Part shown: positions 2,730 through 64,000 of the stretch, in pieces | How positions within the stretch are numbered: the first letter of the stretch is position 1 | Layout: every line of letters begins with the position of its first letter | Origin: Asterochloris sp. CNOR1 | Lineage: Eukaryota; Chlorophyta; Trebouxiophyceae; Trebouxiales; Trebouxiaceae | Length of the DNA stretch: 64,000 nt | Direction of reading: 5' to 3' | Assembly (NCBI GenBank): GCA_963969365.1 | Contig: OZ017752.1 | Coordinates: forward strand, 248,001-312,000 | Translations under genes and position numbers: made by a program | The notes under the pieces: model-generated | Databases searched by the model: none | Seen by the model: the letters and a program-made list of their open reading frames with translations, nothing else | What the model was told of the DNA's origin: nothing

Positions 2730-5700
2730 ATGAACCCCACAATCCCACGCGTTCTGAACCAGGAGCTGGTGCTGACAGTCGACCCCAAGGGCAGAAGGCT
2801 CTATGGGTGAGCCAGGCTTGCCATGCAGAGCCCCCATGCATGCACAGCAAGGCTGGCATGCCTGAGGCCTCTGCTCTGCCTCCTGCAGGTTCACCAGGCT
2901 GAACATCCAGGTCCCTGTCAACACTCGCTCCATTGGTGAGCCAGATTGCGGCTGTCAACTGAACTCTCGGCTCAACAGGCCCCTCACAGCCTTGCCTGAG
3001 CCGCCAGCATACACAGATGTTTAGCAGAAGGGGAGCATGCAGGGTCTGGCAACCAACAAGGATGAGGGAAAGCAGACTCAGCGAGTCTGCCATGTGCTGG
3101 CTGGCTGAGAGTCGGCACTTGAACTGGCCCACTGGCAATGCAGCCTGCCTGATTCCGGTGACAAACCAGGAGGCTCATCTTCTAGCCCCCAGAGACATGC
3201 TTCTGACAGCACAGGCGCCCTGCAGGGTTGCACGCCTTTCAGCTGAGGATCCGCACTGACGGCATCAGAATTGATGGCGAGAAGGCTGCCTATCAGCTGC
3301 GGGAGTACCCTTCCGAACAGACTCCCGAGGACTTGCTGCAGCAGGCGCCTCCACGCACAGGAGGCAAGCAGAGTTTTGGTGCTACGGCCAATCGCCGATC
3401 TGAGAGAGATTGGCTGCAGTGCAACACACCTTCCTGTGTAGTGACACAGCTGCTGTGCCCTGCAGACTACGCCCCAGCGACTGCAATGGACTCCAGGCCG
3501 CCTGCAGCCCGCCTGGCTGAGCACACCTTCCTGCAGTACCAGCGCCTGCTGCAGCGCGAGGTCTCGGAGCCGGAGCTGGTCATCCAGCTGCCCAATGTGT
3601 TGGGGGATTATGGCACAATGCTGTCTGAGTCTGCTGACGTGGCAGGGGTTGAGTTCATGGAGCTCAAAGTCATCATCGCGTTTGAGGCATTGCGGCCCCG
3701 ATGTGGGATGCACTTCTGCGGGGACTGGGCGCTCAGCGACAATGAGGTGGGTGGCACCAGCAATCAATGCAAGCTTAGACTGCCGCCTGCCATGGTGTGA
3801 GGTGCTCACATTCAGCGGCAATTGGCAGTAGCTAGGTGGGCCGCCGTGCTGAAGGCCTGCTCTGAATCTCCAGGGCCTGCAGTAAACAAAGGCCTGCATG
3901 TGTCGCTGGCATGTGTTCTTCGTCATGTGAGGTGATTGAATGATACAGCATAATTGCTGACTTGAGGCTTGGGGCCCGCATGCACTTCAGCAAGGACTGG
4001 GTCATGATCTGCGCTGTGCATATCACCTGCTCAGCGCCGACAAGGTGGCCTGTTGCTGGCATGCGCAAAGTGGCGCCCAGCCAGCAGGAGTGGTGCACAA
4101 GCGGTCTTGCACCAGGGCAAGGCTGTTTGTGAGCATTGATGACTGCGCGCCAAAGCAAGCTGCAAGCTACTGTAACTTGCATGATCAGCCAGGTGCAGAC
4201 ACCAGGAAGCATCCCACCCTACCTGCCCTGGCTGTCGCTGAGGCAGCCCCGGGCCCTCCCCCCTCTGGGCCTCTCCAAAGCACGTGCCGATGTGCTTGTT
4301 CCAGGTCGCTGTCAAGGCAAGAAGCTGCCTGCCCTGCTGCAGCTGAGGCGGGCCAGGGCCTGGTTCCCCTGCGTGGACACGCCCAACGGCGCCTGCACAT
4401 GGGACCTGCGCTTCACCGTCCCCATGGACTGCATGGCCGTCAGCTCAGGCCAGCTCCTCAGGCAGGTGAGAGCACAATGGGCTGACCAGGCAACCACGCA
4501 GGGTGAGCTGAAGCACAACCCTGAACCTGTTCTGTCACCAGACAGGCGCTTGATACTGCTGCAGCTGCATTCAGCTGCACATGCAGATGAGGGCAGCTTT
4601 CAGCAAATTGTCAAAGTCCTTCATGTGTCGTGCAGGCCGCCAGTCCATCACGTGCCTGCTGTGACCTGTTTGTGAGGCTCATTTAGCAGCTGCCTGCGCA
4701 TCATCGGGTGCCTACTCTTTCCTGCAGGTGGTAGCAGACAAGGGCAAGCAGAGGACGTTCATCTACAAGCAGACAGTGGCTGTGCTGGCCTGTCAAATTG
4801 GGCTTGTCGTTGGTGAGCCTGCTTACTGCCAAGCACGCCACGCTCAATGATGCTCTGAAGCAACTGCAAGTCTGTATGCAACACCCATGCTCAGTAGGAG
4901 CGCTGGTATCACACTTGTATCACACAGCTGTCTGTTGCATCATATAGTTGCTGATGGCACAGGCACTCATGCTTGCTGCAGTGGCACAAGAGATGCAGCC
5001 ATTACTTTGGGGCCACCAGCACATTTCCCTGCCATTACCCCTCAAGAGGCCCGCAGCGTACTTCACACTCCAAATCTGTGGCTGCAGCTGGCGTCCATCC
5101 CACAGCCTGCCCTCACATCTTCTGTTGTCAACCCTGCAGGTCCGCTGGCGGCCCAGAATACCGAAGCGGGCAAGACCAAGAAGGGGATAGCTGCAGCCGA
5201 AGGGGCAGGCGGGACCCCGGGGCGCGCAGCGCCAGGCAGCTCTACCCGCAGCCCTGCCTTCATGAGCCCCACAGGCTCATCAAGGCGGACACCACTACGA
5301 ACGCCTGCCAGGAAAGGTTCTTTTGTAACTCAATTGACATTGTTAAGGGCCTCTTGATATTCTAAGCCAGGTGGGGCAGTGGAGATTTGCGTTGGCAGCC
5401 AGCCGCTGGTGCACAAGGTGTTGCAAGGGCACTTCAGGAAAGGCAGCTGCTCAGGGGCTTGCCTGCAGCCCTGCCATGATGAGACCCAGAGGCTCAGCAT
5501 GGCACACTTTCCTGCAGGACCGCATCTGCTGGGACTTGCTGGTGGGACACCTCGCACTGACGGAGAAACAAGAATCAACTGCAGCTATGCCTGCAGGACC
5601 CCTTGGAGCACTCACGGCGGCGAGCCCTCCTTCAGCAGCTCCTCCCGTGTCACGCTGCTGGCGCCCGAGCAGGACCTGAGGGAAGCTGAGCTGACGGTGA

Positions 5701-8700
5701 AGCCCCTGATGGTGGCCTACAGCAACTTTGAGATGGAGCTGGGCTGCAAGTTCCCCTTCAGCAGCCTGCAGCTGGTGAGCTGGGTAGCCAATTTGGAATC
5801 GGGTGCTTGAATGCTCATCAGATTGGCAGCAGCTTGAGGGCTGCAGGTTCCTCTTCAGCAGCCTGCAGCTGTGGAGCTGATGTGCACCTTCAGGGAGGAG
5901 CAATATAATGATGTCATTCAGCAGTCCGCACTTGGTGAGCAGGCCCAAGTTGGAGATTGCACTCTCATGGCACGGTCTAAAGCTGGATGCGCTGGTTGAC
6001 TTGAGGTCGCTCCTGTCCTGACCTTTGTGCCAGCAAGTGCACAGCTCTTGTGCAAGCTTGAGTCTGCACTATTTGGCTACAGCAGCTGCTGCTTGATGGG
6101 CAAAAAGAATGTGAAGCTGCTGACTTACTGTGCTGTTTTTGTGAGCACAAGCTGCAGGTGTTGAAACCAGCAAGCGTCAGCTTTGTCATGCCCTGCAAAT
6201 GAACCTTCATGCAGCATGTCATAGACAGCAGGCATCTTCAGCGCCATGCAACATGCAGCACGCTGTGGGCAGCAGTCACTACCATGAGGCCATATGTCAT
6301 TTAGTCCCCAACCCCTGCAAGGCCTTGCCTGCAGGTCTTCGTCCCAGCCAAGGTGGCCAGGCACAAGGTGCAGGTCTTTGCCTGCCTCATCGTTGTCAGC
6401 ACAGACATGCTGGTGTCGGCAAGGAGTGTGGAGCAGGTACGGTCTTTCATTCGCCACAAAGCTGACCCATGCACAAACACTGCTGCTGCTCCCGAGAATG
6501 CTTTTTGCACTCCCAGATCAGCATGCAGGCCCACCTCTGTGTGGCAAGCGCGTGTATGGGTCCTCAGCACATTCCCAGCCTGGCCAACCCTGTCCCTGAG
6601 CGCCCCCTTGCCAGCTGCACTCCAGCCTTCATCTGCCTGCAGGCAGTGGCAGCATGCTTTGGCTGGCAGCCTTCTATGACTTATGTACAGCAAGAGGCCC
6701 ACCATGCCTGCAGGCAGTGGAGGTGCGCATCGCCTTGGCAGGCGCCCTGGCTCAGCAGTACTTCGGCATCCTGACCCGCCCCAAGACGCTGAGAGACAGC
6801 TGGCTGCTGCACGGGCTGGCAGGCTACCTGCGTGATGTGTGGGTGCGCAAGGCCCTGGGGAGGAATGAGGTCCGCTACAGGTCAGTGTGCAAGCCCTGGG
6901 TCCGACTGTGCACTGGCAGACAGCAGCATGGGGCACAGTGCCCATAAATGTTCAGCCCCCTCTCAAGAGGTCAGCAGGAGCAACAGCTGGGCCTCAAGGC
7001 TGTCTGGACACCAGGCTGGACTCCGGCCCACTATGCAGATCATTCCATCACAATCTGATGAAGCCCTTGAAGATCTGCTTGCTGGCTGTCCCCTCCGTGA
7101 GCAACCCATCGTGTCCCCTGACTACATGGGTACATGGGTACATGGATGGTGCTTGCGGGCTAGTACCTGCAGCACAGCTCAATGTCAGTGATGCTGCATA
7201 CTTGAAGCGTGCACTCAGCACCGTCAGTTGATAGCAGGGCTGGATCAGGCAGAACAACTTTCGCCATGATGTGATTGGGTGCATACCGCCACCCCACAAG
7301 ACGGAGATTGCCGGGGGCAGAAAGATTGTTCACATGCAATCTGACAACAGATGAGAACAAGATTGTTCCGGCTGCCTGCAGGTGCACCAAGCATCGCCAG
7401 CTCATAGCAGAGCTGGACCAGGGATCAGCCCCTCCCCTGAGCGACAGGGATGCGCCACCGGGCAAGCTGTGGGGGCCGCTGCATGGCACAGAACTGCTGG
7501 ACCCAGCAGACCTGCACCGCATCAAAGCCACAGAGGTGCGGTCTGTTGGTAGGGCTTCAGCGCGTCAAGTGCTCAGTGCTGGGGTTTGCAGCTGTTGGTG
7601 ATTTTTGTGCACATGGATCCGCTAAATCTTGCAGGCCTGGACTGTATCAGAGTCAACAACTAGTGCTATTGAGAGCTGCCACTTACAGCAGAGATTCTGA
7701 TGTGATGTGTTGTTCACCCCCGCCTCAAGCTGCTGCAGCCGCAATACATTGCCTGGGTTTGTTCCAGGATGCCAGACCACTGCGTTAGCAAATGAATGAC
7801 TCAGGCGCTTTCTGTAGTGCAATCCAGCCACCCCAGGCAGCGGCACGGGGGAACGGTTGCCACTGGAAAGGCTGCACGCATGGTCCAAGCAGTAGGCCAA
7901 AGCGCCCATGTTGACAGCAGCCACCCTCGTGTACCATGCTTTGTATTGGCTTGACATGCTTCACAACCAATGCCATTATCGGCAGTGCCAGCAGAGGGTG
8001 CCCGGTATCATGAGAGGCATGCCCAGTCCCCAAGCCGATACTAAACCCACTTCAGACTTAGCCTTTGCTGTGGCTGAAAGATTGCCTTCGTAGACGTATT
8101 TCACAGCCAACTGCCAATGCCAGCAGCACCACAACATGCCGGCCGACACCAGGAGGTGCATGAGAACTGCTCAGCGCACACCACTCCAGGTTCTAAGCCT
8201 GTCTTTGCTGTGGCTGTGCAGTTCATCCACATGCTGCAGCGGCGTGTGGGGGAAGATGCCATGAAGAAGGCCATGGAGAGGATCATCATTGGTGCCACAG
8301 CCAAGCTTGCGCAGGGTGAGCCCCCTGGCCCTAAACCTGCAGGACACAGTCCTGGCAACATTAGACATTGATGGGTGGCATGCGCCAAGTCCCTCATGAA
8401 GCTGCTGCTTCTCTATGCTGGTCAGGTTGCTGGCAAAAGGGGGAAGAGGAATCCCCCTTCTCCTTGTCCATTCTTCCTGCAGCTGCAATTCGGTGCAGAA
8501 CGGGGCATATTCGTCAGGCCACCTTGCTGCAGATTTTACCGACGAACCATAATCAAATTCAATGGCACCCCGTCATTTGTGCACCAAATGCAGCCTGTTG
8601 AGCCCCCCTGCTTTGCCCTGCTGGCAGAGCCTGCAGCATCATTAGGCCTGACTTCACAGACACTCCTGCCACTGGAAACTCTGGCAGACTGCTTATGTGA

Positions 8701-11700
8701 TCAACTTGTCACTGTCACCATCTCTGGCCAATCTTTGCAGGTCAGGACCCTGGCAACAGGGACGATGAGAAGGATGCCCGCCTCCTGGTGGCCCTGCGCT
8801 TCCTGCAGGACGTCTCCCAGCAGGCGGGGCTGAAGCCCAAGGAGCTGCGCGCTGTGCACGAGCGATGGGTGCACCAGCGGGCGGTCCCGCTGCTCACAGC
8901 AGCCTTCAGCTACAGCAGGTGTGGGGCCGGACCATTGCATACGGCAGCCTGTGAGCAAGTGCATGGGACATTTGTTGGGAGGCACTGTGACCCATTCCTC
9001 AAGCAGGGAACCCATGGAGCTGCAAGACGTGCATGAGTGATGGGTGCACCCGCGTGCAAGCCCGCTGCTCATGGCAGCCTTCACCCACAGCAGGCGCAGG
9101 GCAGGGGACAAGGTCTGCTTTGAGCAGGCACGTAGCTGTTGCAGAAGTATGTCACAGTTGTAACGAGCTTCACTGGGAAGCTGTTTGTGTGGTGCTGGCC
9201 GCTACCTGTGGCAAGCAGGACTCTAGAGCCCTGCAAGCCTTTCAAAGAGGTGCATGCATTTCATGAGCGTCGGTGGCAGCAGTAATCGGTCCCAGATTGC
9301 AAGCTGTGTGATACACTTTCTGCAGGAAGCGCAATGTGATGGAGCTGGCACTCAGGCAGTCTGGGTCTGCAGCGGCGCTGCGGGCAACAAAGAAGGCCAG
9401 CGCCCAAGGAGCCAAGGAGGGGTCCTACATTGGGGACGTGCAGGTGGGCCGCAGAGGTCTGCACGCTGCTCATGCATCCCTGCAGGCCCCCTGCCTCTAC
9501 TGAACTCTTGAGGTAACAGAATGTTGCTGGCAGGCTACATCCCAGCGTGCTGGCTCAGCCAAAAGATGCCCACAAGTTCCCTGTGTCACGAGACGCCACC
9601 ATGCTACTGCTTGCCCAGGAGGATTGCTTGCATCCGCAAGTGGCAATGAGTGAGCTGTGTCAGGCAGTTTCCGTGCTCTCTTTGCTCCGTGCTGTGCCAT
9701 TCATGGCTTACACAGCTCTCTGCTGCATCTCTAGGCAGTGGCGACTATGGTCATCTGTAGCCTTCTCTATGTGGCTCCTATGTGAGTTGCATTCTGCCTG
9801 ACTTATCAGTGCCCCATCACTTATGCAGGTCATGGTGAAGGAGCCAGATGACAAGGTCACCCACACCATCAAGCTGGGGTCGCACCCCATTGCATTTGAG
9901 GAGATCAAGGTCAGAACGTGATCGAATGCAATGGCGTCGTGAACAACTGTCAGGCAGTCCAAGCATGGAGTCTTGCGTTTGCATACAAACCCTTTGCCAT
10001 GCCTGGAACCTTGCTGCCTGCTGTCTTCCACAGCACAGCTTTGGCTCAAGAGCTTGACGCACCAGGCCGCCCAACAGGATGCCATTGTTGGCTGGATGCC
10101 ACCCGCACAACAGATTCAGGCTGCTCTTTTGCCTGCGTCGTCTGCAGCTGACGAAAGGCATCGGGCGCAAGCAGGCAGCCGCCCATCGCGCCAAGCAGAA
10201 GAAGGATGACCACCTGGACGAAGGGGAGGAGGATGCAGAGCCCATTGTGGAGCACCAGTTCGACCCCACAGGTGGGCTGGGAAAGCAGAGGCAGGGTAAG
10301 GGTGTATGGTTTAGGGCTTCAACACTCACACAGCCACATCTCTGATGGCACCTGTTCACTGATGCAGAGGCTGGTCGGCCACCAGTCCACTGGGTTCAGA
10401 TTGACCCCAACATGGAGTCCCTGGCAGAAACCCTGGTGCTACAGCCCGAGTATATGTGGATTGCACAGCTGGAGCAGAGCGCAGACGTGGCAGCTCAGGC
10501 AGCCGCCATTGCTGGCCTAACCACTTTCAGGTGGGTTATGGTGCCAAGCTTCTTGTCCAGGGATCTGCTGATCGCCTGCTTAACAATGCACCATGGGCGG
10601 ATCTTGAGGCAGCATGCGACTCCTCAACGCCATGGGCCTCAGGCATGAGCTTTGCTGCCTGTGTTTGCTGATCTCTCTTGCTGATAGTCTCTGGGCAGCT
10701 TTCAAAGTGAATGCCTGACATGCTATGCAGGCACTTCACATGCCGTTCTGTGACGATTTGCAACATGGTGCTGCAGGCCGGTGACTCATGCCATTGTAAG
10801 AGCATTTGAGAATGCAGTGAGGAACCCCCAGTGCTATCCCAGGTGGGCTCCACAGCGACCTGCCCATGCTTAGATAGGCTAAGCCTGCAATTGTTGCACT
10901 GTGAACCCTCCCCCCTATGAGGGGGCCATGCTTTGCCATAAACTTATACCCTGTAAGAGGGCGCTGCCAAAGCTTCTAACTCTGTCATGAGAAGCTGGCA
11001 CTGAGTTGCAGTGGTGGTCCACTGTACCAAACTGTCAGCCCTGTCCAGGATACGGAGAGAGGCTGCCATGGCAATGGGCCTGACAGCAGGCGCTGCCACA
11101 GACTACTCAGGGCTGCAGACGCTGGTCAGCACTTTCAGGTGGGTGCCTGCCTGCCTGCTGCACTCATCTCTGCATTCCAAAGTCAGTAGTCCGAACCTAC
11201 CCTTGGCCTCTGACTTTTCTGCTGTGTTTCAGCTGCATTGCAACACAAGCTCCAGGCAGCCCAAAACATGCCATACAAACGGCAGGCAGCCCCCACGCCT
11301 GGGCAGATTGCTCGTCAATATCATTCAGGCCATGCCTGCAGGGACCTCTTCTGTGAGCGCAGCACGGGGCTGCTGGCGCCTGCCCGCTTTGAGGACGTGG
11401 CTGACCTGTACGTGCAGCAGGCGCTGCTGCTGGCGGTGGCTGCCGCGCGGGACGACCACGGCGTCTCCCTGCCAGAGGCACAGGACTTGCTGGTGAGCTG
11501 CAGGGAGCACAGAGGTTTCCTGCTGACAATTGCTAGGGTGGTCTGCACATGCAGCAGAACCTGCTGCTGGCTGTGGGCACTGCGCTGGTGACTCCCAATC
11601 CACTGCGCAGTGAGTTGGAAGTCACCAGCGCAGAAACTCATACCAAACTGTAAGCAACAATGACTTCACCTGGCATTACCCACATGTGCGAAATGGCCAG

Positions 11701-14700
11701 CTCTGCCGCTACAGTCAAAGTGCTGCAGATCTGGTGTTCATGTATCACCCTATTCAGATTGTTGTCCCATGCACACTGAGGAGATCTGCCTCTCAAAATC
11801 CTGTCAGGCACAAGTCTGCGTTTGTCACCCTGCACTTTGTCTGTCAGGTCTGCAGCTACCTGTAATCATGCCTCCTCAAACAACACTTTCAGGAAGTGAC
11901 CTGTGTGCTGGCGGTTAGAGGTGCTGAATTTGATCTAATTTTGCAATCTTCTGCAAGGTGCTTTGCCCACTTCATTCAAAACCGAGCATCTTAAGTTGGA
12001 GGTGGTGCAGAATGTGACCTCTGTGCCTGCAGCTGGAGGTGCTGGAGTTCCATGACAACCGCAGCAGCCCCTTTGAGGACAGCACCCTCCTGGCTGCTCT
12101 GCTGGTGGCCCTGGGCTCCCTGCGCCCCGCTGATGGGGAGAGCCTGGCCCAGCTGCTCAGGGGTTTTGACCAGGTACACGGAAAACCAAACAGGGAACAT
12201 CCATGTATGACAGGGTTGCACCTCCAGACTGTCGAGGTGCTCCTTCGTGTGCTTGTCTGACTTGTTTCACTCATAAGCATGCTTGCAGAGCCTGGCCCAG
12301 CTGCTCAGGGGTTTTGACCAGGTACGCACACGTTTTGGCCTAGTGCTGAGGGGGCTGGGATTTGTCTGATGCCAGCTTGCAAGGATACCAATTGACTTCT
12401 TGGGATGCTTTGAGGGATGCTTTGAGGGATGCTTGTCGGAAACGCAAGCAGGCTCCTCTGAACCTGCTGCCTTGGCTGCTGTCCAAGCACTGGTCTACAT
12501 TCACACAGAACAGTGCTGCCCATGTAGCATCTGCGGCTTGGCACTGGACGCAGATTTCACGATCCAAGCCGCTGCTGGCCTGAAAGGTGTGATCATACCC
12601 TCGCAGGTTCTGGCTCGTGAGAAGGTGCTGCCCTCCAGAAACGGGGTGGTGGTGCAGGCTGCGCTCAGGGCTTCCGTGCAGCTGGCGCTGTCGCGGCAGG
12701 ACCCCACTCAGCTGATTCCCAGGCAAGTGTGCTGCCTGTCTGCCGTTCCTGGCAGTCAGTGCGTCGGGTAACAGGCTGCATCCAGGGCTTCCCTGCAGCT
12801 GGCGCTGTCGCGGCAGGACCCCACTCAGCTGATTCCCAGGCAATTGTGCTGCCTGTCTGCCGTTCGTGGCCGCTTGCGCGTCGGGTAACAAGCTGCATTC
12901 AGGGCTTCCGCACAGCTGGCACTGTCCCATAGGAACCCACCCAGCTGGGCCCTGGGCAAGCGTGCAGCCTGTGTGCTGTTCCTTGCCATCTTTGCATCGG
13001 GTCACAAGCTGCATTCAGGACCTCTGCACAGCTGCTTTTGTGCGCTGTGTGAGCCCGACATCAGTGCTGGCCTATGTGTCAATCTGCAGTGTCTGATGCC
13101 TGCTCCTGACTCAGTGCTGGCCTGACTGCAGGGTACGGGCGCTGTGCAAGGCCAACATCAGGGCTGACCTGCCCCTGGAGCTGCAGCGTGTGGCCCACAG
13201 CTGCCTGCTCCAAATAGCAGCCTCGGAGGGAGGTGCGAACGGGGCTGTGGAGGCTGCCCTGGCTGCCGTTGGGGGAACTGAGGTGATGCAGCTCAGGTGA
13301 GGTGCCCAGGCTCGTCACAATTGAGCAGGCTGCGCGGGCTGGGGACGGCTCTGATGGCTGCTGAGGAGCATGAGCGGGTCACCGAGGACCTTCAGCCTCG
13401 GCACAACTGAGCAGTCTGGGCGGAGGGAGGACTGCTCTGATGGGTGCTGAGGGATTTGAGCTGGTACTGATGACCTTCGCGCTCATCGCAACTGAGGAGG
13501 CTGTGCTGACAGGGGATGGCTCTGATGGGTCCTGAGGTCTTTGAGCTGGTACCGAGGACTTTTTGAGCTCTGCACAGATGAGCAGGCTGCGCAGACTGAG
13601 GACGGCTCTGATGGCTGCTGGGGGGATCGAGCTGGTACCAAGGATCTTCAAAGTGCATCTGGCAAGTGCCTAGCTCCTAACCGGCTCCGGGTCTGCACCA
13701 TGTGAACAGCCTCTGAGCCATCCCCTGGAGGAGATGCAGCCCAGCCCTTGTTTGCACGCCTCTGCGCTGATAATGCATTCATAGTGTGTAACAACTGTCC
13801 TTACTTGTTGAGCTTGAGCAACAGCACCACGCCGATGGCATCGTGCTGTTCTGACCCTTTGCCTTACCAAGGCTAGCCTGTTTGTTAACTCAATGCCATG
13901 TTGTATGGGCAGCATGCAACCTCCTGATTTGGCGAGAGGTACTTCCGGCATGCTTAGCCTGTGAGGTGGCCATGCAGCATGGCGCTAGCACCCGGCAGCT
14001 GGGCCAGACAGGCAGCACCGCACTGACATGGCCACAGAGCAGAAGCGGCAGAAGTGCTGCCTGCACAGAGCCTGAGCTCGTATGGCGGCACGAGCCTGGA
14101 TTTGACACTGTTTGCGGCCCATTGGGGCTCTGCATTGCAGGTGTTGCCTGCATGTTGCAGGCTTGTCCTGCAGCTGGCTGCACAGGCCCTATGCTGCACC
14201 ACCTACAAGGGCCACCCCAAGCACCCCGCATCCTGTCCAAGACTGCTCCTCAGAGTGAGCAATGCCACAGACGTCATTGTCTGCAGGTGTGGCATCTTGG
14301 AGGATCTTCTGGAGCTGCTGGGCGGTGCAGAGATAGAGCATCCGCATGTATACCGGGAGATTGCAGAGGGGCGCATCTTGCCAGGTCAGCATCTGAGAGG
14401 CCTCCAACCCAGGGGCAGCAGCCCTGCCGTGCCTTCATTGATGTAGGGAAGACTGTAAGCCTTGCCAAGATCTCCTGTGGTGCACAGATTGAGTGCACAT
14501 GCACCATAGAGGAAGATTGCAGAAGGGCATCTTGGCAGATCAATGTCAGTCTCGTCCTGTGAATGCCGCCATGGCAACATGCGGGTGAACGAGCTCTGCT
14601 TGTACCAGTGCTGTGCAACACCCCTGGTGCACCAGCTTGGCCCCTGCAGTATACAGTCCGCTGCAGGGCCCCTACGGCGCCTGCACGCTCTGTTCAACGA

Positions 14701-50288: not shown

Positions 50289-50416
50289 CACGTGTGAAAT
50301 CTTGCGGACCAGGCTGCAGATAAAGGCCGCAGCTGCGGGACCGCTCTCAGATCGGTCTTCGAAGCCCTCATATATATTGTGCGGCCTTGCTTAAGGAGTC
50401 AAGCCTCATCTCAAGC
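50289..50416. promoter_or_regulatory. 128-bp bidirectional promoter of FLVA and FLVB
   Basis: The whole gap between the two ATGs is 128 bp. A CACGTG G-box at 50289-50294 directly abuts the FLVA start codon. TATATAT at 50371-50377 is 40 bases upstream of the FLVB ATG and could serve as its TATA box. Both mRNAs must have very short 5' UTRs or overlap each other. G-boxes bind bZIP or bHLH factors, including light-response regulators in plants; their use here is inference. Confidence 0.75.
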
Positions 50417-53400: not shown

Positions 53401-56400
53401 CCCCCTTCTCGCCCCACTTCCGATTCTACTACGACTGCCTCATGCGCCCCAACGCACGGTCGGTGCTCACGGCGCTCAAGAGGACCAAGGACATGGACTA
53501 CGACACCATTGCCACCGGGCATGGGCCCATCCTGCGCTATAACCTCTCAGAGCTGGTGGGCAGGTGAGAGCTGCGCCAGAGGTGCAGGAGGCTGATCTTC
53601 TCCCTATTGACGTATCGCTCCCTTTTATGCCTCCTCCAGGGGCTGAGGCCCTGCTGGCAGGAGGGAGACTGGTCTGCCACAGATTTGCGTGTTTGCAGCA
53701 CTAGCGCCCATGGGCTTGAGTGGGTCTTGCAGGCTAACTCTCTGAGCCGGCAAGGGGTGCAGATGGGGTGTCTTTCTGAAGGGCTCTGCATGACACGAGT
53801 GTTGGCTGGCCAATGTTTGCTTCCCTTCGGTCATATCTTGTGAGCGGGGGATGCCAGGCTGAAGGCTGTTAGCTGGTCTGGTCTGCTGCAGCTGTGGGAA
53901 TGCTTCTAGGCCAGCCCTGGCTGCTTTGCAGACATTGGTGGTGCAAGGCTGTAGGGAAGTGAGCTGCCAGCGCAGACCTGCAGCAGCTAGCAATCAGAAT
54001 GGCTTTGGCTGCCCTGCAGGTACTGGTAACCCATCCTGCAGTCTAAAGCAGTGTACCGCAGGGCATGCCTGCAGCAGCTGAGGTGGTCTGCCCTGCAGGT
54101 ACCAGTCCTGGAGCGAGGCTGTGGGCAAGTCAGCCGCCAGCGTGGCAGTCCTGTACAGCAGCGACTATGGGTACAGTGACCGCCTGAGCCAGACCCTTGC
54201 CCGTGGCATCACCAAGACGGACACTGCTGTGGAGATGGTGGACGTGCTGTCTGTGGACTCTCAGGTCAGTCTATGTGATACACTTGCACTCATGAGCATC
54301 TGCTTGGCCTGGGCTTGCGAACCTTGTCCTAACTTCTAGGTTTAGGAGGCCGGGCTCTGCAGAGCTTACCAGATGACGCCATGATGGTTGGCACTGCAGG
54401 GGCTTGTCTCCCAATGTGCATAGCAGGGCTGGCCCACAGCAAAGGCCAAGCAGTGACCTGAAAAGCAGAATGGCACGTTGCTTGAGAGGACCTGTGCTCA
54501 ATAGCTGGTTTCGCTGGCTGCAGGAGCTGGTTGAGATTGTGGGGCGCTCCACAGGCATCGTGCTGATGGCACCGCCCTCTGAGAACAAGGCCGCCCAGAC
54601 CACCATGAACACGCTCCTGTCAGCCTGCAACAGCAAGCAGAAGGTGAGGGCAGGGCACCCTCCTCATGCGTGTTGTCCTTGCTTGTGCGGGGCAACAGCA
54701 AGTACGTGATTTGTGGAGCTGTGCTGTAGCTTTACAGAGGCGGCACGGGGCACACAGGCTGTGCCTCCAGCAGCTCTGCATGTCTATGACACGTTGCAAA
54801 CTACCACGTGGGACCCTGAGCTGTTGCCCCTGCCATCACCTGATGACAGGACCTGATGACAGGACAAGGTGATAGTCAGCTGGGCCAGCATCTCAACAGC
54901 CTACAAGATGCCGGATTGTCCAGAAAAGGGGACCCTAGAAATTGGAAAGCCAAGCAACTCAAGGCCCCCTTTGGAAGGGCTTGGCCTGCAACTCAACCCG
55001 GCCGCCAACCCCTGACTGCCGCATCTCCGTCTGCAGGTGCTCATTGCTGAGAGCTATGGCGGTGCCGATGAGCCTGTCGACACGCTGCTCAACAACTTTG
55101 TGGGTGCGGGCGTGGAGCCCGCGCTGGACCCCCTTCGGGTCAAGTCTGAACCTAATGAGGCGACCTACCAGGTGGGTGGGCTGGAAAGCTGGACGCCGCT
55201 GCCAGCTCTTGCTGCACAGCCTTGCTGGGCACAGCAAGATGATGGGAGCATGAGGAGGGAAAGCAGGCTCTGGCCCTTCTGTACGCACACTGCTGGAAAA
55301 GGCTGCTTTGTCCTGGCAGCGCACATGCAGCACTCACGCTAGAGGGATGGGACTCGAACCCCAAATCAATCCAGCATGAGCTGCGTCAAGCCTGCTGCCC
55401 CAGCGTTACAGGGTGTGCAATGACACCACAAGTCAGTATGCTGCCTGCGCTTGCAGCTCAGGCGCCACTACTTCGCAAGCAGCTTGATTCGCCATGCAAG
55501 AGGGCAAGGGCCTCGCCCTGTGCTCACTGCTCTCACCTAAGGCCTGCTATTGCATCTGCATGCAAGATCTACCCATTCTCCTACATTGCCTCCTGAACTT
55601 GCCCACACTCGCAGTCTGGAAGGTCAGAGCTGGTCAATATAGCGTCAACAGTGACATCTGGGCTGCCAGGCCAGGGCACCACCAATGCGCACCTGCTCTG
55701 ACAGGCACTGCGCCCCGCTGCAGGGCTATGAGGAGGCAGGCACCCGCATGGCCCAGGTGCTGACCAAGAAGGAGAAGATGGCGCGCCAGAAGGCCGCCAT
55801 GCCAGCTGACACCGCCAAAGCCCTGGCCAGGGTCTCAGGGGGCCTGTACGTTGTCACAGCCCTCAACAACTCAGCCCGTGGCGCCATGCTGGCGTCCTGG
55901 GTGGCGCAAGCCAGCTTTGAGCCCATGGGGTTGACCATTGCCGTGGCCAAGGACAGGGCCATTGAGTCCCTGATGCAGGTGGGCTTTGGCTGCCAAGTGC
56001 CGGGCACAACTGCTGCACGTGCCGCCTCGGTTTCAACTGGCGCTTGGCCAGTGTGTGCGCTGCACTGCACCTGGTTTCGTGAAAGTTTGGGGGTGGACAA
56101 GGTCAGAGCTGAATGGCTAAACCCTAGGGGGCTTTACAGTCTGTGCTGGGCGAGAGGACAATGTTTGCTGGGGGGGCACAGCCTGGGAGATGGCGGCAGC
56201 ATGCAGCACCTGTGGCGGTGGATGCCGTTGCTGTGGACAAGGTTTGTGCTTGCAAATCCCTCATGCAAGTGAGTTCTTCGAAGTACCTGTCCTTGCAAGC
56301 TGCTGTCTGCGCCTGGGCTGTGGCTTGGGCTGTGGCCAGGTCTGTTGAGTCCAGCATGCATGTGGTCTGCTTTATGCTGGGTGAGGCCATTGACTGGAGG

Positions 56401-57092
56401 GTGCTGGCAGTGTGTTGCAGGTGAGGAGGTGGCTGCAGTGATAGAAATACTCATGGCCAAAGGCAGACCTGATTGAGGCACTCATTAGGCAGGCTGCATA
56501 GACCGCCTGTCAGCATGCTGCTGCGCACTTGCTGCAGCCAGGGAAGGTCTCATGCAGGGGTCAATTGTGTCCCTGGCTCACGTGGCAGCATGTGCAGGGT
56601 TGGGCGTGCCAGCTTAATGTGCTGTTGTGCTTTGCTGCAGATAACCTGGTCTGCTGCCCACCTGCTGCTCACCTCGTCTGCCTTGCATTGGGCGGCAGGC
56701 TGGCAAGGCTGTGCTCCACTTGTCCACCTCATGTCGCTGCAGGTCAGCACAACACTTGAGCAGCTTATCACCAGCTCTGCTCTGCACTGTAGGTGGGCGA
56801 CAACTTTGTGCTCAACTGCTTGGAGGAAGGCAACTACAGCAGGAACATGAAGCACTTCCTTAAGCGCTTTCCCCCTGGGGCCGACCGTCTGGACGGCATC
56901 GAGTGGACCCAGGCTGAGAATGGATCGCCTGTTCTGGAGGAGGGCATCTGTGCTTACCTGGAATGCAAGGTGCTATCTCGTATGGAGGCCGGGGACCACT
57001 GGCTGACCTATGCTCAGATCACTGGCGGTTCTGTCGTCCAGCCTGACAAGCGCACTGCTGAGCACCACCGCAAGGTGGCCAATTATTACTGA
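50417..57092 (+). CDS. FLVB: Flavodiiron protein B, Flv3-type (chloroplast)
   Basis: Partner of FLVA in O2 reduction on the acceptor side of photosystem I. Every exon joins in phase: 50417-50592 (Ser/His/Arg-rich transit peptide), 50708-50782, 51301-51384, 52004-52175, 52632-52775, 53257-53563, 54099-54264, 54524-54643, 55037-55171, 55724-55978 and 56793-57092. The metallo-beta-lactamase domain keeps the canonical iron ligands: SHTEPDHSG (HxExDH), NLHWPDTM, CDAFGAHF and ATGHGPILRY. The flavodoxin domain shows LYSSDYGYSDRLSQTLARGI. The flavin reductase domain shows LNNSARGAMLASWVAQASFE and ends HHRKVANYY. Complete canonical ligands identify the Flv3/FLVB branch. In phase joins throughout suggest an intact gene. 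The intron after 51384 has a GC donor. Intron 6 (after 53563) and intron 10 (after 55978) hold decayed exon copies, and intron 4 contains a long G tract. Confidence 0.95.
52251..52291 (+). repeat. G-rich tract, potential G-quadruplex
   Basis: About 40 bases consist almost only of G with single C interruptions (blocks of GGGGGC), on the transcribed gene's sense strand inside FLVB intron 4, 76 bases past the donor. It has many runs of at least three G, enough for DNA or RNA quadruplexes. Confidence 0.85.
53940..54120 (+). repeat. Exon 5'-end copies upstream of FLVB exon 7
   Basis: The exon starts at 54099 after CCCTGCAG (GTACCAGTCCTGGAGCGAGG). Upstream copies are CCCTGCAGGTACTGG at about 54014-54028 and, for the next stretch of the exon, GCAAGGCTGTAGGGAAGTGA at about 53943, resembling GCGAGGCTGTGGGCAAGTCA at 54113. 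The earlier acceptor is a credible decoy. Confidence 0.7.
55935..56375 (+). repeat. Copies of FLVB exon 10 end in intron 10
   Basis: The exon end GCCGTGGCCAAGGACAGGGC...CTGATGCAG|GTGGGC (to 55978) is echoed at about 56226-56275 (GCTGTGGACAAGG...CCCTCATGCAAGTGAGTTC), at about 56088-56110 (GGTGGACAAGGTCAGAGCTG) and at about 56330-56365 (GCTGTGGCCAGGTCTGTTGA). The second still has a GTGAGT donor. Confidence 0.75.
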
Positions 57093-57633
57093 TGGAGAGC
57101 ATCTGAATGCATGCTAGTATATGTACATCTGGCATATGAGTTGATCTGTCACATAGTGTGACATCCAAATTGGCTTCCCCCATTGCCTTCATCAAATCGT
57201 TTTGGCCTTCGTGAGTGATGTAGTTGAATCCGCTAGCTTTCTGTTCTCACTGCAACATCTAGGTACAGGCAGAGGTGATGCAAGGCTGTCCCAACGTCAG
57301 GATCCAAAAGACACTGCCGCGTAAGTTGCAGCGGTCCCAAAATTGTCAATGTGATGACACTGTACCCCTCAGAATGACGAGGTAGATTGTCCTGAGCGTT
57401 TCCCGCCCAGCAGCTTCGAAATTATCTCACTACAGGTGTGTACATCATGCCCGCAATCTCATGTGGACTGAATGTTCCCATGACCCAGGTGCCCCCAACC
57501 TGGTCCTGAATGAACTAATTCTGAATTGAGACCAACTGGGGGTGGTCTTGAACATCAGCGCACAAAGTAGATGTTAAGTCAGTGCTCAGGGCACCACACG
57601 TCAGAGCAGTGCCCCAAGCAGGCCCCTTCATGC
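57093..57633. other. Convergent 3' intergenic region between FLVB and THOC5
   Basis: About 540 bp, less GC-rich than its surroundings, with no coding potential. It should hold both 3' UTRs; I found no clear TGTAA. Confidence 0.4.
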
Positions 57634-60600
57634 TCAGTAGTGGCGGCTGTAGCCACTGTACGACAGGAAAGGGCCACGGTGCTGGTGGTGGTGCTGCTGG
57701 CGGCTGGACTCATGGTGGCTCTGGACGGGGCGCTGTGTCGAGGGCTGAGCCAGGGCCAGGCTTCGCTTGTTCTGCTGTATATCCTTGCAGATCAGGGCGA
57801 TGCACTGTGCCAACACATTGCCCGCGCTGCTCTGCTCCAGAACGGCGTTGACCTGTAAGCGGGTATGAGACGCTCAGCTCACGCTAGGTTGGCGGCCCAT
57901 AAGTGGGATTCAGCACCAGGCATCCAAGGCGCGGGCCAGGCAGCCCCCTCGCAGGCATATAGTACTGAAGCTTTTCTTGATGATTTGAGATTTTGCAGAG
58001 GACCAGCAGTGTTGACACCATCAGGACGCTTAGCATGCAGCAAAGGATGCTCTCAGGGGCAGCAGCTGGCCAGGCAGATCACCACAAGTAGATGTGCCAC
58101 TGCAGCTGGCAGAAGGTGTGCACCAACATGAGGCCGACATCATCATTGCAAGTGACCTGCGTGACAACGAAAGATGCATAACCAAGTGCTGCACTTAGGT
58201 AGCCATCAAGGCAAAGTTGCTGACACATGCAGGCAGCCATGGCAGCCACATCAGTCTGCAGACCACATGCAGCCCACGCTGCTGCAGCTAGCAGTTTGGT
58301 TCCTTTGTGGGGCAACCACGCCCCTGGGTTTCCCAGACTCTGGCAGCTGGCTGGCTGTCCAGGAATGTGCGTGAGCTGCAGCAGCCCACCCTTGAAGCAG
58401 GGCCACGAGGACCAGAGTGATGCTGCAGCTGCACAAAAAGCCACATGGCTGCCACCAAGAAGGTTGCCCGCATCTGGGGACTGCTGCAGGAAATGCAGTT
58501 GGGTGGGACCCTGCTGAGTCAAAGCCGATAGCATCAGTTGCAAGCTGCCCTGGACAGCCTACACAGCCCCATGCAAGGCCTCATGCCATGAGCACCGTCG
58601 ACCAGCGCCTTCACTGAGCAGCCAGAACAGGCAAGTACCTGCTTGCAAACGTTACTGGCCAGGCGTTCACTTTCATAAATCCCTCCTTTAGAAGGGGGAG
58701 GCGCTGGACCCGCACCGAGCTTCTGGCACAGGCAATCAGCAAGACGTCCACCTTCCTTGATGCTCAGTTTTGAGAAGAATCACTGGTGAGCACCTAGGCG
58801 AATGAATGAGCGTCTTGCACACACTCCAGCCAGGCACCCACCTTCTTCTCCAGAAGACCCATTGGGGTCTTGCCCACAGGCACAGCCTTCTCCCAGGCGT
58901 GGTCTGAGTCCGCCAGCAACTCCTGCCTGTTGGTGGTCTGGGACTGCCTGAGCTGCAGGCCTTTGAACACAGAGGGGACAGCAGACTGCTGCCAGCTGCC
59001 TGCCACGCCCACCTGTAGCATTTGAGGGGGATGATGGCGAGACGGGTCAGGGGGGGTCAAGCAGCGTGAAGAGGGGTTTTGGTGGGGTACAGACAGGCAA
59101 CAGACTGCAGCTATGCACAGCTGCAGGGCAAGTCAAGAGCAGTGCTCGGAGCCGCCAGCCATCAAGCGAGGCGCGGCTGATGCTGGGATGTGAAGGCAGA
59201 TGGGGCAGCGAGCTGAAACTGGCTGTCAGCCACGGTCATCTGCGGGTGCCAGCAGCATGACTCAGTGGACCTGCCGGGCTGCTGCAAATCACAACCTTAC
59301 CTTGCACAAGCCTGGCTGCCAGCACTGTCCTCAACCTCGAGCTCTTTAGAGCTCGCAGCAGCCCAGCAGCTGCTGTTGAAAAACATGAAACAGGCTCCTC
59401 GGCTTCACATGTCAAGTTCCGCATGACTAGCTGCCGCTGCAAACCTGAAAAGCTAGCAAGCTTAAAATTGAGCAGCTTATAAAACTCACCTGGACCTCAA
59501 ACAGGAATGCCTCCATGCGTGCCCGCAGCTTGAACCACAGCTTCGGGGCCTCTGCAGCGCCTGCCGCCACCTCGGAGGCCGCTGCCTTGCCGTGAGCAGC
59601 TGCAGTGTCGACTGGCAGCTCTCCCTCCTCGCCCTCCTCAGCCACTGCAGCGGCCACAGGCATGACCCATTGCTTTGAACTGATAGCTGCAGTGTGGACT
59701 GGCAGTGTGAGTGTCAATGGGAAGCTCCCGCTGCTCACCCTTTCCAGCCCGCTGGGGAACAGATGGTGTGCAACAGCAGGGATTGCAGGAATTCTGACAT
59801 TTAGGTACCTTACCTGGGCTGCTGCTGCATTGACTACCAGCTCTCCATGCTGCCCTTTGCAAGGGCAGGTAGTGTGCATTAGAGTGTTGAACACGCAAGG
59901 TGACCTGCTTTGAGCAACTGCTGAGGATGTCATTTGGCAGGTCCCCTCCCTCCCCTCCTCACCCAGTGCAGAAGCATGGGCAGACATGCTCACCCATGAC
60001 AGCCAAAGAAGCCAGTTGGGCATCTCTTTGCAGGCAGCATGTGCACACTGCAGGTGCTGACTGCGTCCTGGCAGGGCATCACTTCAAGAGGGACATGCAC
60101 ACTCCAGACCTGCCGCCGCCGCTATGCCAGGCGATGCTCAACAATTAACCCCGCAACAAATTTTCACACAGGAACCTTCACAGCCTCCTTTTCGAACAAG
60201 CCAGTACCATGCACGTATGCAGCCCATCTGTGTCAGCGGCGTCCATGCGCTGGTGCCCACTGACATGATCAGCGCCCCCGCAACTCCCATGTCTGTGCTA
60301 CTGCCCCCCGCCCTGTTGTCAGCAGGCGCCGTCAGCTGGATTGGTGCAGCAGCAGCCCACCTGTGCCGTTGGTGTCCATGGCCTGGCGGCCATTGGCCTC
60401 AGCAGCTGCAGCTCCAGTCTCGGCAGGTACTGCATCCACCTGCTCCCACTTGAGCACCTCGCCCACGCCTGCCAGGCCTGTGCCCGGCAGGGGCCTGGTC
60501 ACTGCGACAATGGACTGACTGCAAGGCAAGGGGAAAGGAATGGATGCGCTGCACTGTGTCAGAGGACACACGCAGCGGCTGCGGGTGGCACAACTGGAGC

Positions 60601-63600
60601 GTGCGCGACCACGAACAACTTCTTGAAGGGTTGCCTATGGCTCCACCACTGGACGCTGCAAGCTCCGCAATCAGTGGGGAAATATGCTGCTGGCAAATAG
60701 CTTACCATCTCGCACCTGCAAGCTGCCTGACTTTGCATGTGATTCACTGGACTGGACAACCCCCAAACACACAGAATGCATCTCACAAGAGGACATCATG
60801 CTGCTGATGAAGCAGCAGCCAAATGGCTGGCGTCCAAGCCACCGTCTGCGGCTCCACCAAAGAAAGGGGTAGACTGGTGACATTCGTTCCAGCAACAATG
60901 CTGCCAAACAAGAGAACCGCGACTGTGCTCAGCTCCACACCAATCAAAACAGGCCCAGCAATGTACCCTGACAATATCTGCCAGGCAGCAGCTGAAATCT
61001 GCAGTCATCAGCAGACAGCAGCTCAGCAGTGCCCAACTCCAGGCTGCCCACTTCTGCAGGTCTGCGGTCATCAGCAAAGAGCAGCTCAGCAATGCTCACC
61101 TCCAGGCTGCCCACTTCTGCAGGTCCGCCAGGAACTGGGCTGCCGGCTTCTCCTGAAGCAGCTTCTCGATGCGCTCCTTGACGGTGTCGCCTAGCTGGAG
61201 GCTGCTGAGCAGGAGGCCCCTGTGGGGAAGCGGAGTGGGAGGATCCATTCCTGCCAGCTGCTGAGCCCACCTGCAGCAGCAAAGCACTTGTGGGGAGCCT
61301 GCAGTGCTGCAGTGCAGGGGCCACAGGGTCTGCCTGCTGCTGACACTGTACACACAAGCTTGCAGTGTAAGCCAAGGCATTCTCAGCCGGGGGCAAATGC
61401 ATGGCCACTGGCAGTCTGCCTGCTATGCAGAAGTTGTACTGCCCCCCGTTCCTGCTGCAGTGCTGTTGTATCAGAGCCCTGGACTTGACTATCCTGCCAG
61501 TGCTCCGACCTGGAGCCCATTACACTCTCACATCAACCCTTGTGCACAGCCTGCTCCACTGAGATTGACTTACATAATTGCAGTTTAGCCGCTCTCCAAT
61601 GACCCCTGACCTGTAAGCCGCACCCTGCTGGTGTGCGCAGCGCTTCCTGCTGCTATGACATGGTCCCAGAGAGGTCAGCCATCCACCAAGCCATGTCTCA
61701 AGCGACAGCAATCACCTGTACGACACGCCCATTCCTGCGACAGCGGCTGACTGTACCCATCAGAGCTCACAGCTGCCATAGCAGGTCTGCAGGAATCAGC
61801 ATGCATTGCGGGGGCCCAGATGGAGTTTTGGACGGCAACCCCCAAGAATAGCTGCAGGCACAGATAATGCCTTGCCCTCACCTTTCCAGCATGCTGGTGT
61901 CTGAGGGCTGGCACCTGCTTGTGTCCCTCAGCACTGAAAACTGACCCCTCAATCTTCAGCAGTCCACTTCACCCCAGCACCTCACCTGTACGGTGTGCCC
62001 AGGCCTGCGGTCTGCAGCTGCTTGTACCCCTCAACGCTCACAGCCGCCACCCCCAGGTCCGCCGGCGCCAGCATGTCAAACAGCTCTTGCTGCAGGTTGT
62101 CCCGCTTGTCCGGGGCCACACACACCACCTGGTGGGCCAGGCTGTACTTGAAGGTAAACTTCATCTGCGGCTGATCCAGGGTCAGAATCACGCTCAGTGG
62201 GTGCACCTGCAGGGGCACATGAGGCACACAGTCGTGGTCCAGGACAGCTGCAGCTTCAGGGCTGGGGCTTGCACATCAATCAACAAACTCTGGGCTGGAT
62301 TCAGTGCCATGCTCAGGGAGGCACGTGGCCTGCAGAGGCACATTCATGCACTGTCATGGCTTTGAGCAGCTTCAGATACAGGGCTTGGGCCTGCACAAAG
62401 CACCAACATGCAACCTTTCTGTTGAGTTCAATGTCACAGCTTCACATCAGGGGTTGGGCCTGCACAAAGAGGCGACAGGCATATTTCTGTCTGGGTTGAG
62501 TGTCATGCTCAGGCAGCGGGCGCCTTCATGGCCCAGGATATACACAGTTGCGACCAGGGACTGCTTCAAATCCAGGGCTTGGGCCAGCATAATGAGGCAA
62601 AATGCATACTTAAGGCTGGGCCTAAAGTCACGGCCTCAACTTGAGGGCCTGGGCCTGCACACAGGAGCAATATGCGTGGAGAGCTTTGCTTTCAGAAATC
62701 AGGTCTGGATTGACATGCAGGTCAGCAGAATCTTGCAGCACGAGCAGTCTAACGGGGCGCTGCCGGAATACAACCCAACATGTGAAGGTCTACATAGCAT
62801 GGTTGCAGAAAAGCATGGCACCAGTCACCTCCACAGCATCAGCTCGCGCATCAGCTGCATCCTCAGCAGGGGTCGCAGCATCCTCAGCAGGAGCTGCTGG
62901 CCCAGTGGGCACCTTGCGCCGCTTGGCTGTCCTGCCCTCTGCTGCCTGCAGCACGAGCAGGAGGGGCATGTTTTTCCAGGCAGTTGGCTCAGCAGCGATG
63001 TATACTTGCCCCATGCAGCGCTGCTTGTGCATGCACACCCAAGGGCAGTCGTGCATGAGCGACGGGCCAGGCAGCATGCTGCGCCCTGTTATCAGCATCA
63101 GGTGCACACAACTGCGCAACACAGCAGGTAGCCCTTAAAAGTCCTCTTGGCTGCTATCGATGCCGCCACATGATGTAGTATTGCCTCGAGCAGCACCATG
63201 CGCTTCCCCACCACAAAGCAGTGTAGTCAGCATCATGTGGCCGCACAGCAATTCCATGAAGGCTGACAATGCAGCAGAACAATGATGGCTTTCTGGTTGC
63301 ATGATAGCACCGTGGAGAACAGGCAAGCACAGCCATACAGCAGCTCCCCACCTCCACAGCGTTCCCTGCCACTGCCATAGCGTCCTCATAGCTGCCCTCA
63401 ATGCTCACGCTGAATGCGCTGCATGCCAGTGTCTCGCTGCACACCATGCTGAGGTGGGTGTACAGAACATACAGGGGGATGGGCAGCAGCTTGACTGATG
63501 GAGCCTCTGCTTTTGCCTGCAGGACGGCACGCCCAGATCTGGAATTCTCAAGAGCAGATGGGCACAGAGGATACAGCACATAGAGCGGGGTGGGCGGGCG

Positions 63601-64000
63601 GCAGTTTAAGGAGAAGGGCCTCCGCCTCGGCCTGCAAGTCAGCAGAACAGGTTACTTTGAGGCAGGCGCACAGCACACACAGCGGCTGGACAGTCGGCGC
63701 CTCTGCGTCAGCCTTGGCGGGCAGACCAGCAGATCATGTCAGCCATGCTGCCACTTGCAGGCATGAGGGCAGCACAAGGGCTTGTGTGCTAACATCCATG
63801 AATGAAGAGCATTGTGAGCCTGCAACCCTGATTGATGCTTGGTCACCCAGCAGCACCTGCCGGATAACACTGTCCCAGCTGGTCACTCTCCAGTGAAAAC
63901 TTGACAAGCTGGTTGACACCAGTTCTTGCACATGTCAAACAGTGGGAGCACAAGGCACACCCAGCAGTGGCATTGACGTTGCCTGCACAATGCAGCCATT
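57634..64000 (-). CDS. THOC5: THO complex subunit 5 (THOC5/FMIP), N-terminus beyond window
   Basis: THOC5 is a subunit of the nuclear THO/TREX complex, which couples transcription to mRNA export. Minus-strand exons: 63524-63356 (KLLPIPLYVLYTHLSMVC, FSVSIEGSYEDAMAV), about 62944-62830 (TAKRRKV and an acidic Ala-rich linker), about 62207-61987 (VHPLSVILTLDQPQMKFTFK, ELFDMLAPADLGV), about 61215-61108 (VKERIEKLLQEKPAAQFLAD), about 60525-60360, about 59643-59491 (KLWFKLRARMEAFLFEV), 59012-58842, and 57857-57634 (VNAVLEQSSAGNVLAQCIAL, then a His/Gln-rich tail). PLYVLF...SVxIEGS..EA, (T)KRR and HPLSVxLDL are in the same order as in human THOC5, and the EVN-like segment near the end also agrees. The conserved N-terminal coiled coil is not present and must lie past 64000. 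Repeats of exon edges fill at least four introns. Confidence 0.82.
57858..58841. other. THOC5 intron, no other gene seen
   Basis: About 1 kb between the last two THOC5 exons I could place. Another exon may be hidden here, but no conserved segment was recognised. Confidence 0.35.
59590..59855 (-). repeat. Copies of a THOC5 exon 5' end
   Basis: AGCTGCAGTGTCGACTGGCAGCTC...CCTCAGCC at about 59598-59645 belongs to the real exon. It is echoed at about 59686-59745 (AGCTGCAGTGTGGACTGGCA) and about 59817-59855 (GCTGCTGCTGCATTGACTACC). The copies lie in the upstream intron in the gene's direction. Confidence 0.75.
60955..61160 (-). repeat. Copies of a THOC5 exon end and donor
   Basis: CTCCAGGCTGCCCACTTCTG occurs at 61031-61050 and 61101-61120, with the flanks AGCAGCTCAGCA(A/G)TG and CATCAGCA also repeated. 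Read on the minus strand this is the exon end (QKWAAW) followed by a GTGAGC donor in the real copy. The spacing is 70 bp. Confidence 0.9.
62185..62690 (-). repeat. About five tandem copies of a THOC5 exon 5' end
   Basis: GGGCTTGG(G)CCTGCACA or a variant recurs at about 62262, 62382, 62453, 62575 and 62647, with a shared CTGG...AGTG(C/T)CATGCTCAGG block resembling the exon start (CACGCTCAGTGGGTGCACCT at 62190). The array fills the intron before the VHPLSVILTL exon. Confidence 0.8.
63465..63725 (-). repeat. Three copies of the THOC5 PLYVLY exon start
   Basis: On the minus strand the real exon opens AKAEAPSVKLLPIPLYVLY (from 63524). Copies upstream in the intron read AEAEALLLKLPPA (from about 63633) and AKADAEAPTVQPLCVL (from about 63717). 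Each follows GCAG or a similar acceptor-like end. The further copies are more diverged. Confidence 0.8.

Follow-up and report, generated by a model that had tools for sequence, protein, structure and literature searches.

Copies of exon edges in the introns of the green alga Asterochloris, probably left by old local duplications

Why should the introns of a gene be filled with copies of that gene's own exon ends? The question is raised by a window of 64,000 nucleotides (nt) from the green alga Asterochloris sp. CNOR1 (contig OZ017752.1, here C7, positions 248001-312000). Several of its intron-rich genes, among them those for TAF2 and THOC5, carry in their introns repeats of the adjoining exon edge, splice site included. 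An initial annotation of this DNA took them for the work of a continuing process at splice junctions that extends introns and leaves decoy splice sites behind. Exon-edge copies exist above chance, and they are local and direct. The interpretation is half right. The probable source of the copies is a less directed one, namely old local tandem duplications that were blind to exon borders and lengthened the introns, with the exon copy conserved ever since.

The genome comprises 56.4 Mb in 21 contigs, of which 344 kb on four contigs were sampled: the window (64 kb), 200 kb of contig C1, and 40 kb each of C12 and C18. The window entered the sample on account of the pattern already seen in it, which biases its own rate; the wider claim therefore rests on the other regions. 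Exon borders were predicted by a purpose-built, self-training, two-strand ab initio gene finder, whose training converged on a clear donor (CAG/GTGAGC) and acceptor (CTGCAG/G). A first gene set, covering the window and C1, has 539 introns; a set retrained on all four regions has 78 genes of at least 300 nt, shorter ones being omitted, and 662 introns with a median length of 245 nt. Most counts skip introns below 150 or 200 nt. The edge test took as much as 100 nt from each exon edge and aligned it to the neighboring intron (at least 150 nt) at a local score of 22. In the self-alignment test, which is looser and includes chance pairs, an intron plus both flanks was aligned to itself at score 22; exon-exon pairs were left out of these counts and of the simulations described below, since codon structure alone yields such matches. 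The finder calls some young in-frame copies exons (TAF2 12289-12321 and 12799-12884, and units of a UPF0014 permease gene), and a label-free scan was therefore added as a check.

How common are the copies, and how specific? Across the four regions, the edge test finds a direct copy in the intron next to the exon for 49 of 928 edges. Inverted copies were found for 0/928 edges, copies in another intron of the same gene for 0/886, and a match in another gene's intron for a single edge of 928, all of which bears out the central observation of the initial annotation. Run region by region, the other-gene control gave one match in the window and one in C12. Own-intron copies are present on all four contigs: 17/169 edges in the window (inverted 0/169, same-gene distal 0/157, other gene 1/169), 14/568 in C1, 6/85 in C12, and 12/106 in C18. 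The first two regions alone give 35/730, against 0/730 inverted, 0/704 distal, and 0/730 in other genes. Lowering the score to 20 yields 58 own-intron copies, 4 inverted, 1 same-gene distal, and 0 in other genes; one inverted control is dominated by self-symmetric hairpins. Introner elements are similar intron sequences spread over many genes. Here, besides the single match of an exon edge to another gene's intron, neighboring intron pairs have 62 matches, compared with 60 in Markov sequence.

Longer introns in the first two regions carry copies more often: 1/70 introns of 60-100 nt, 0/80 of 100-150 nt, 7/141 of 150-250 nt, 9/147 of 250-400 nt, and 16/87 of 400-1000 nt, with inverted copies absent from every class. 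In introns of at least 150 nt, self-alignment detects an exon-intron pair in 95 of 479; exon-edge copies occupy 8.6% of intron bases by this test, and local direct repeats cover 16.0% of 170,636 intron bases, compared with 0.7% for inverted repeats. The first two regions hold 92 exon-intron and 50 intron-intron pairs, per-intron Markov shuffles a mean of 18 and 19, and Markov sequence of overall composition 3 and 4; the shuffle background is left in the pair counts and in the simulation comparison. The copies are clustered. Matches in the edge test fall in 19 of 74 genes, TAF2 alone has them at 10 of 54 edges, and four 20-kb bins of C1 have none at the 51-60 edges each contains. Density thus varies by gene and by bin, within and between contigs. 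An effect of chromosome size was not upheld on these four samples, variation inside contigs being large.

Are exon edges preferred over other sequence? With 40-nt probes at score 18, 41 of 770 exon edges have a copy and 27 of 1224 intron interiors, a ratio of 2.41; a separate test on the first gene set put the edge excess at about 2.5-3.5 times, with inverted and other-intron controls near zero. The comparison that the initial annotation had proposed, edge repeats against repeats elsewhere in introns, thus comes out positive. As a sign of targeting, the excess fares less well. Blind local tandem duplication was simulated in six runs per model, with introns evolving neutrally, exons largely fixed, and both indels and deletions allowed. 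Steady models give edge/interior ratios of 0.82-0.92. A burst of duplication at 0.2-0.4 substitutions per site gives 2.33, and one at 0.15-0.35 with more indels gives 2.66. Selection holds the exon copy, which lets an exon-intron pair stay recognizable for longer than a pair within introns. A single age, if suitably old, accounts for both the edge preference and the scarcity of young copies, so a mechanism directed at junctions is unneeded. Junction targeting was rejected as a necessary cause on this ground, and the process aimed at splice junctions that had been proposed loses its support, since blind duplication, a conserved exon, and old age together match the excess.

The alignable pairs behave in the same way. 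The real data hold 138 exon-intron and 74 intron-intron pairs, a ratio of 1.86, and 9 of these 212 have at least 85% identity. In simulation, the burst at 0.2-0.4 gives pair ratios of 1.06-2.02 and that at 0.15-0.35 gives 1.24-2.04, both with 5-15% of pairs at or above that identity. Steady models give 0.74-1.23, with 22-32% of pairs there; with too many high-identity pairs and the wrong edge ratio, steady duplication was rejected. Other burst ages give 0.92 and 58% (0-0.1) or 1.26 and 10% (0.12-0.6). In a small test, similarity just inside the intron at acceptors is found in 1 of 11 real cases, at a frequency of 0.15 under the burst, and at 0.58 under steady duplication, so that the acceptor side agrees with the burst.

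Is the process still at work? A copy of at least 85% identity occurs at 4 of 104 junctions, where about 28-33% would be expected under a steady process. In such a process survival only falls with age, and old pairs therefore cannot outnumber young ones per unit time; the scarcity of young copies suggests a higher rate in the past. At score 25, the label-free scan finds 9 pairs of at least 85% identity in 264 kb, six in the window and three in C1. The continuing process of the initial annotation is thus not supported, although activity has not ended entirely. The shift toward old copies argues against much activity at present. That nearer copies are better preserved was not confirmed: the nearest is more identical than the farthest in 19 of 32 multi-copy junctions of the two first regions and has the higher score in 16. 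These junctions hold 2-4 copies, second copies being counted from score 14, and arrays reported by Tandem Repeats Finder (TRF) reach 4.7 units.

What kind of event would leave such a record? Short local tandem duplications, with the middle half of offsets at about 95-245 bp, may have arisen in and around introns regardless of exon borders, perhaps by slippage or template switching. Those lying inside an intron, or crossing a junction with one intact splice site still serving the exon, would be tolerated by way of splicing and would add length. The intron-side copy would then decay as junk, the exon copy being held by selection. Exon-edge copies would stay visible longer than purely intronic ones, and introns would come to look as if packed with the edges of their own exons. 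The majority of events would be old, in keeping with simulated ages of about 0.15-0.4 substitutions per site, and a few younger.

The geometry of the clean cases is head-to-tail across the junction, with the end of the source near the start of the copy. At C1 15058-15711 the source runs from -110 to +41 and the copy from +36 to +193, at an offset of 152; window 60519-61099 (offset 63) and C1 126648-126890 (offset 62) are likewise head-to-tail. The older copies presumably began as tandem duplications. The interquartile range of offsets is about 95-208 bp at donors and 99-246 bp at acceptors. In one array, at C1 133407-133676 (L015:3407-3676), an offset of about 76 bp runs through the intron and most of the next exon (153 nt, about two units); because it crosses into the exon, coding and intron sequence share one array.

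Have the introns grown as a result? Those with copies have a median length of 445 nt and those without 279 nt; once copy bases are subtracted, the former shrinks to 303 nt and the difference disappears (P = 0.57). Long introns also offer more room for copies, so the excess is consistent with the lengthening claimed at the outset and is not proof of it.

And what becomes of the copies? They decay like junk. Of 48 exon-intron pairs with at least 24 aligned exon bases, 36 are disabled by a frameshifting gap or an in-frame stop, and mismatch rates at codon positions 1, 2, and 3 are 0.212, 0.200, and 0.272. Of 30 donor pairs, 29 have the splice dinucleotide within the aligned copy, as have 35 of the 38 acceptor pairs, but the probes included the site. 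GT is retained in 16 of the 29 and AG in 24 of the 35, which supports the view that local duplication over exon-intron junctions leaves decoy splice sites. Per-base identity is 0.72 for GT, compared with about 0.78-0.79 in adjoining exon, and 0.84 for AG, compared with 0.77 in adjoining intron. There is thus no clear selection for or against decoys. A separate feature of the sampled introns is that 66% of the exons that follow them start with G and 38% have T next. The acceptor CTGCAG/G(T) and the donor CAG/GTGAGC look alike, and a duplicated junction would therefore be a potential two-way splice site.

Several results weigh against old, blind duplication. The fit depends on age: older bursts overshoot the edge ratio (6.4 at 0.25-0.4 with more indels; 8.5 at 0.3-0.5), and a younger one at 0.1-0.3 undershoots the pair ratio (0.82, with 19% high-identity pairs). 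Burst ages were picked manually, so that some bias toward junctions could be exchanged for a different age. In the small test of similarity just inside the intron, donors (4/12) fall between burst (0.21) and steady (0.55) values. Density differs strongly from place to place, which the simulation lacks, and the exon borders come from an ab initio gene finder without RNA evidence. Among 26 extended donor pairs (seed score of at least 22), 11 break off 16 nt or less from the splice site. A number of younger copies are short, lack a tandem arrangement, and have unrelated flanks (the 39/39 match at +148, 5741/5838, and 17806/17948), and templated insertion fits them better. The last two points, together with the 2.4-fold edge preference and the failure of steady blind duplication to produce it, are what one would expect if repair or slippage tied to transcription or splicing copied exon edges into the adjoining intron. 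We nevertheless regard such a junction-directed process as unlikely. Old blind duplication yields about the same excess, the exon extent of the copies ranges from about 20 nt to more than 100 nt, and the other 15 extended donor pairs reach at least 26 nt into the intron.

Could the copies instead be duplicated or alternative exons, mutually exclusive or cassette, under selection? Some are in frame with plausible splice sites and are called exons, as at the TAF2 and permease sites mentioned, and among copies of at least 85% identity only 2 of 8 are disabled. The bulk do not keep an open frame, however, and mismatches are nearly as frequent at codon positions 1 and 2 as at 3; alternative exons were rejected for that bulk, and as a general account they are distinctly improbable, though the few most similar copies may be exceptions. 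About as improbable is an origin in intron birth, by tandem duplication of exon sequence, or in copying from spliced RNA. In 17 of 611 introns there is a stretch that joins the two exon edges in the manner of a spliced product, a few of these being good; mispaired controls give 4, 9, and 11 of 591, so neither RNA copying nor intron birth is convincing. A looser rule raises the bridging matches to 32, whereas copies of unspliced junctions turn up for 73 of 913 probes. The geometry of creation at AGGT, in which the end of the upstream exon recurs at the intron's end, or the start of the downstream exon at the intron's start, at an offset equal to the intron length, was found in 1 of 539 introns (two regions, introns below 50 nt skipped, 25/40 ungapped matches), and that one is a miscalled unit of the permease array. 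Spliced-RNA copying and intron birth were both rejected on these counts, and the AGGT route to new introns invoked by the initial annotation finds no support here. The better bridging cases are the C1 133407-133676 array and C18 15012-15213 (L027:5012-5213); in the latter, a copy of the upstream exon end (33/40) runs into sequence like the start of the downstream exon (17/22), possibly an intron made by duplication. As for chance, low complexity, or assembly error, composition does raise the number of matches, as the shuffles show, but the inverted, distal, and other-gene controls are near zero, most copies differ from their source by 20-30%, beyond what assembly error makes, and the assembly is in few contigs; this explanation, refuted by those controls, is next to negligible.

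How are the copies distributed within the window? Pfam matches to proteins or fragments of the predicted gene models support TAF2, the UPF0014 permease, THOC5, and two flavodiiron-type proteins with ODP/lactamase, flavodoxin, and flavin reductase domains (called FLVA and FLVB in the initial annotation), and add a glycosyl hydrolase family 8 (GH8) enzyme, a Myb protein, and a reverse-transcriptase remnant. Self-alignment at score 22 finds exon-intron pairs in 27 of 89 window introns of at least 150 nt: 13 in TAF2, 5 each in THOC5 and the minus-strand flavodiiron gene, 3 in the GH8 gene, and 1 in UPF0014. Of the five genes originally named as carriers, TAF2, UPF0014, FLVA, and THOC5 hold up; FLVB has nothing at score 22, its best match being a weak copy (28/34, score 21) at 52525-52557 (plus strand) of the end of exon 52004-52175. 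The regular units reported were also found, at 69, 84-86, 103, and 117 bp, with TAF2 offsets of about 129-175 bp.

TAF2 is the richest carrier (2730-18125, plus strand; 35 exons in the first gene model, 36 with a start at 2319 in the retrained one; Pfam TAF2_3rd and TPR_TAF2_C). Its 39-bp copy at +148 is exactly as first described: 12139-12177, the end of exon 12033-12173 plus GTAC, recurs at 12287-12325 with 39/39 identity, between unlike flanks and not in tandem. Within it, flanked by CTTGCAG and GTAC, are 33 nt that resemble an exon (12289-12321, plus strand): they keep the reading frame, have plausible splice sites, and match the preceding exon's end exactly. They represent a templated copy of very recent date or else a micro-exon in use. 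The end of exon 5518-5774 plus donor (5741-5782) has a copy at +97 (5838-5879; 90% over 42 bp, dissimilar flanks), and 8832-8930, the end of exon 8741-8918, has one at 9008-9105 (79%) and a second, weaker one. A 117-bp array of 3.1 units (12658-13019) begins in exon 12607-12726 and carries its donor end; one of its units is called an exon by the finder. An 86-bp array of 4 units lies at 13307-13650, and the self-match of 13243-13561 to 13328-13648 (72%) extends back into exon 13132-13296. On the acceptor side, 14984-15270 repeats 15091-15399 (69%), a stretch that takes in the start of exon 15323-15475; 16062-16126 is a 32-bp tandem duplication of an acceptor region with GCAG at the unit ends (87-88%); and 17806-17840 is a copy (91%) of 17948-17982, the start of exon 17951-18125. 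All lie on the plus strand.

On the minus strand, the permease gene has overlapping arrays of 103 bp (2.7 copies) and 84 bp (4.7 copies) at 23113-23763 that contain an exon end plus donor. FLVA has copies at 45207-45266 (72%, of 45518-45578, in intron 44974-45524) and at 49377-49410 (29/34, of 49720-49753, an exon end plus GTGCA). THOC5, also on the minus strand, has a copy (73%) of 59583-59666 at 59901-59985, in intron 59645-60360; further pairs at 59633-59705, 59808-59856, and 60210-60308; a 63-bp tandem duplication of two units across the donor of exon 61100-61270 (60998-61128, 90%); an array at 62231-62620, in intron 62207-62828, matching 62108-62495 (62%); and a TRF repeat of 69 bp in two units at 62367-62505. 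The two flavodiiron-type genes stand head to head, at 41425-50127 (minus) and 50417-57092 (plus), with predicted starts 9 to 290 bases apart in the two models, an arrangement that suggests a shared promoter region. The intron-rich GH8 gene at 29720-34495 (plus strand) has exon-edge copies of its own, such as 33959-34044, a copy (69%) of 33885-33969 (exon end plus donor) with a unit of about 74 bp; glycosyl hydrolase family 8 is mainly bacterial. Just upstream of TAF2, a single-exon reading frame with an RVT_1 match (609-1823, plus strand) is probably a retrotransposon remnant.

Does anything similar exist elsewhere? The closest known system is the sequence or exon stuttering described on avian dot chromosomes (Hron et al. 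2026, Genome Biol Evol, PMC12954441), of which the algal case looks like an older counterpart. That report concerns birds, with gerbils added from unshown data, and only speculates on the mechanism. Common to both are local, imperfect direct repeats within introns, tens to hundreds of bp long, some of which copy the lateral part of the adjoining exon with its donor or acceptor, proximally rather than distally; purely intronic repeats stand alongside them. The settings of that screen (blastn-short, at least 20 nt, 42.1 bits, proximal), run here without its repeat filter, source-range filter, and manual review, pick out 12 of 662 introns (6/116 in the window), with 2 distal matches and 0 in shuffled introns; in chicken, 190 of 5,572 dot-chromosome introns (3.4%) stutter (PMC12954441). 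There are differences as well. The alga has copies on all four contigs sampled, with a GC content of 55-60% per 20-kb bin; its 2-4 copies per multi-copy junction compare with 1 to 44 (median 4) in birds; and its copies are mostly old, whereas the bird repeats vary in length between individuals (PMC12954441). Intron gain by tandem duplication at AGGT (reviewed in PMC3443670) shares duplication across AG/GT-like sequences; here, existing introns appear lengthened and the geometry of birth is lacking. Gene-internal duplication with exon-like remains, referenced in the same review, is also similar, except that the algal copies are partial edges, mostly disabled, and intronic. The parts used of the Coccomyxa genome paper (PMC3446292) make no mention of exon-edge copies, and no algal report of exon-edge copying was recognized in searches of an open-licence library.

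What follows for the biology of introns? At a practical level, such copies mislead a gene finder into extra in-frame exons. Since the bird pattern also occurs in a green alga, it is not tied to avian dot chromosomes. A neutral null of blind duplication plus a conserved exon makes junction targeting testable, and could be applied to the avian data as well. It is unlikely, yet worth stating, that these introns grew in a past episode of junction-biased local copying, by repair or template switching at transcribed exon-intron borders, and that this process is shared with birds and still gives occasional short templated copies, such as the perfect 39-bp one in TAF2; if true, exon stuttering would be a general and convergent way for introns to lengthen across eukaryotes. 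The conserved exon, meanwhile, serves as a fixed reference for each decaying copy, and the introns of Asterochloris therefore offer a datable record of intron lengthening.

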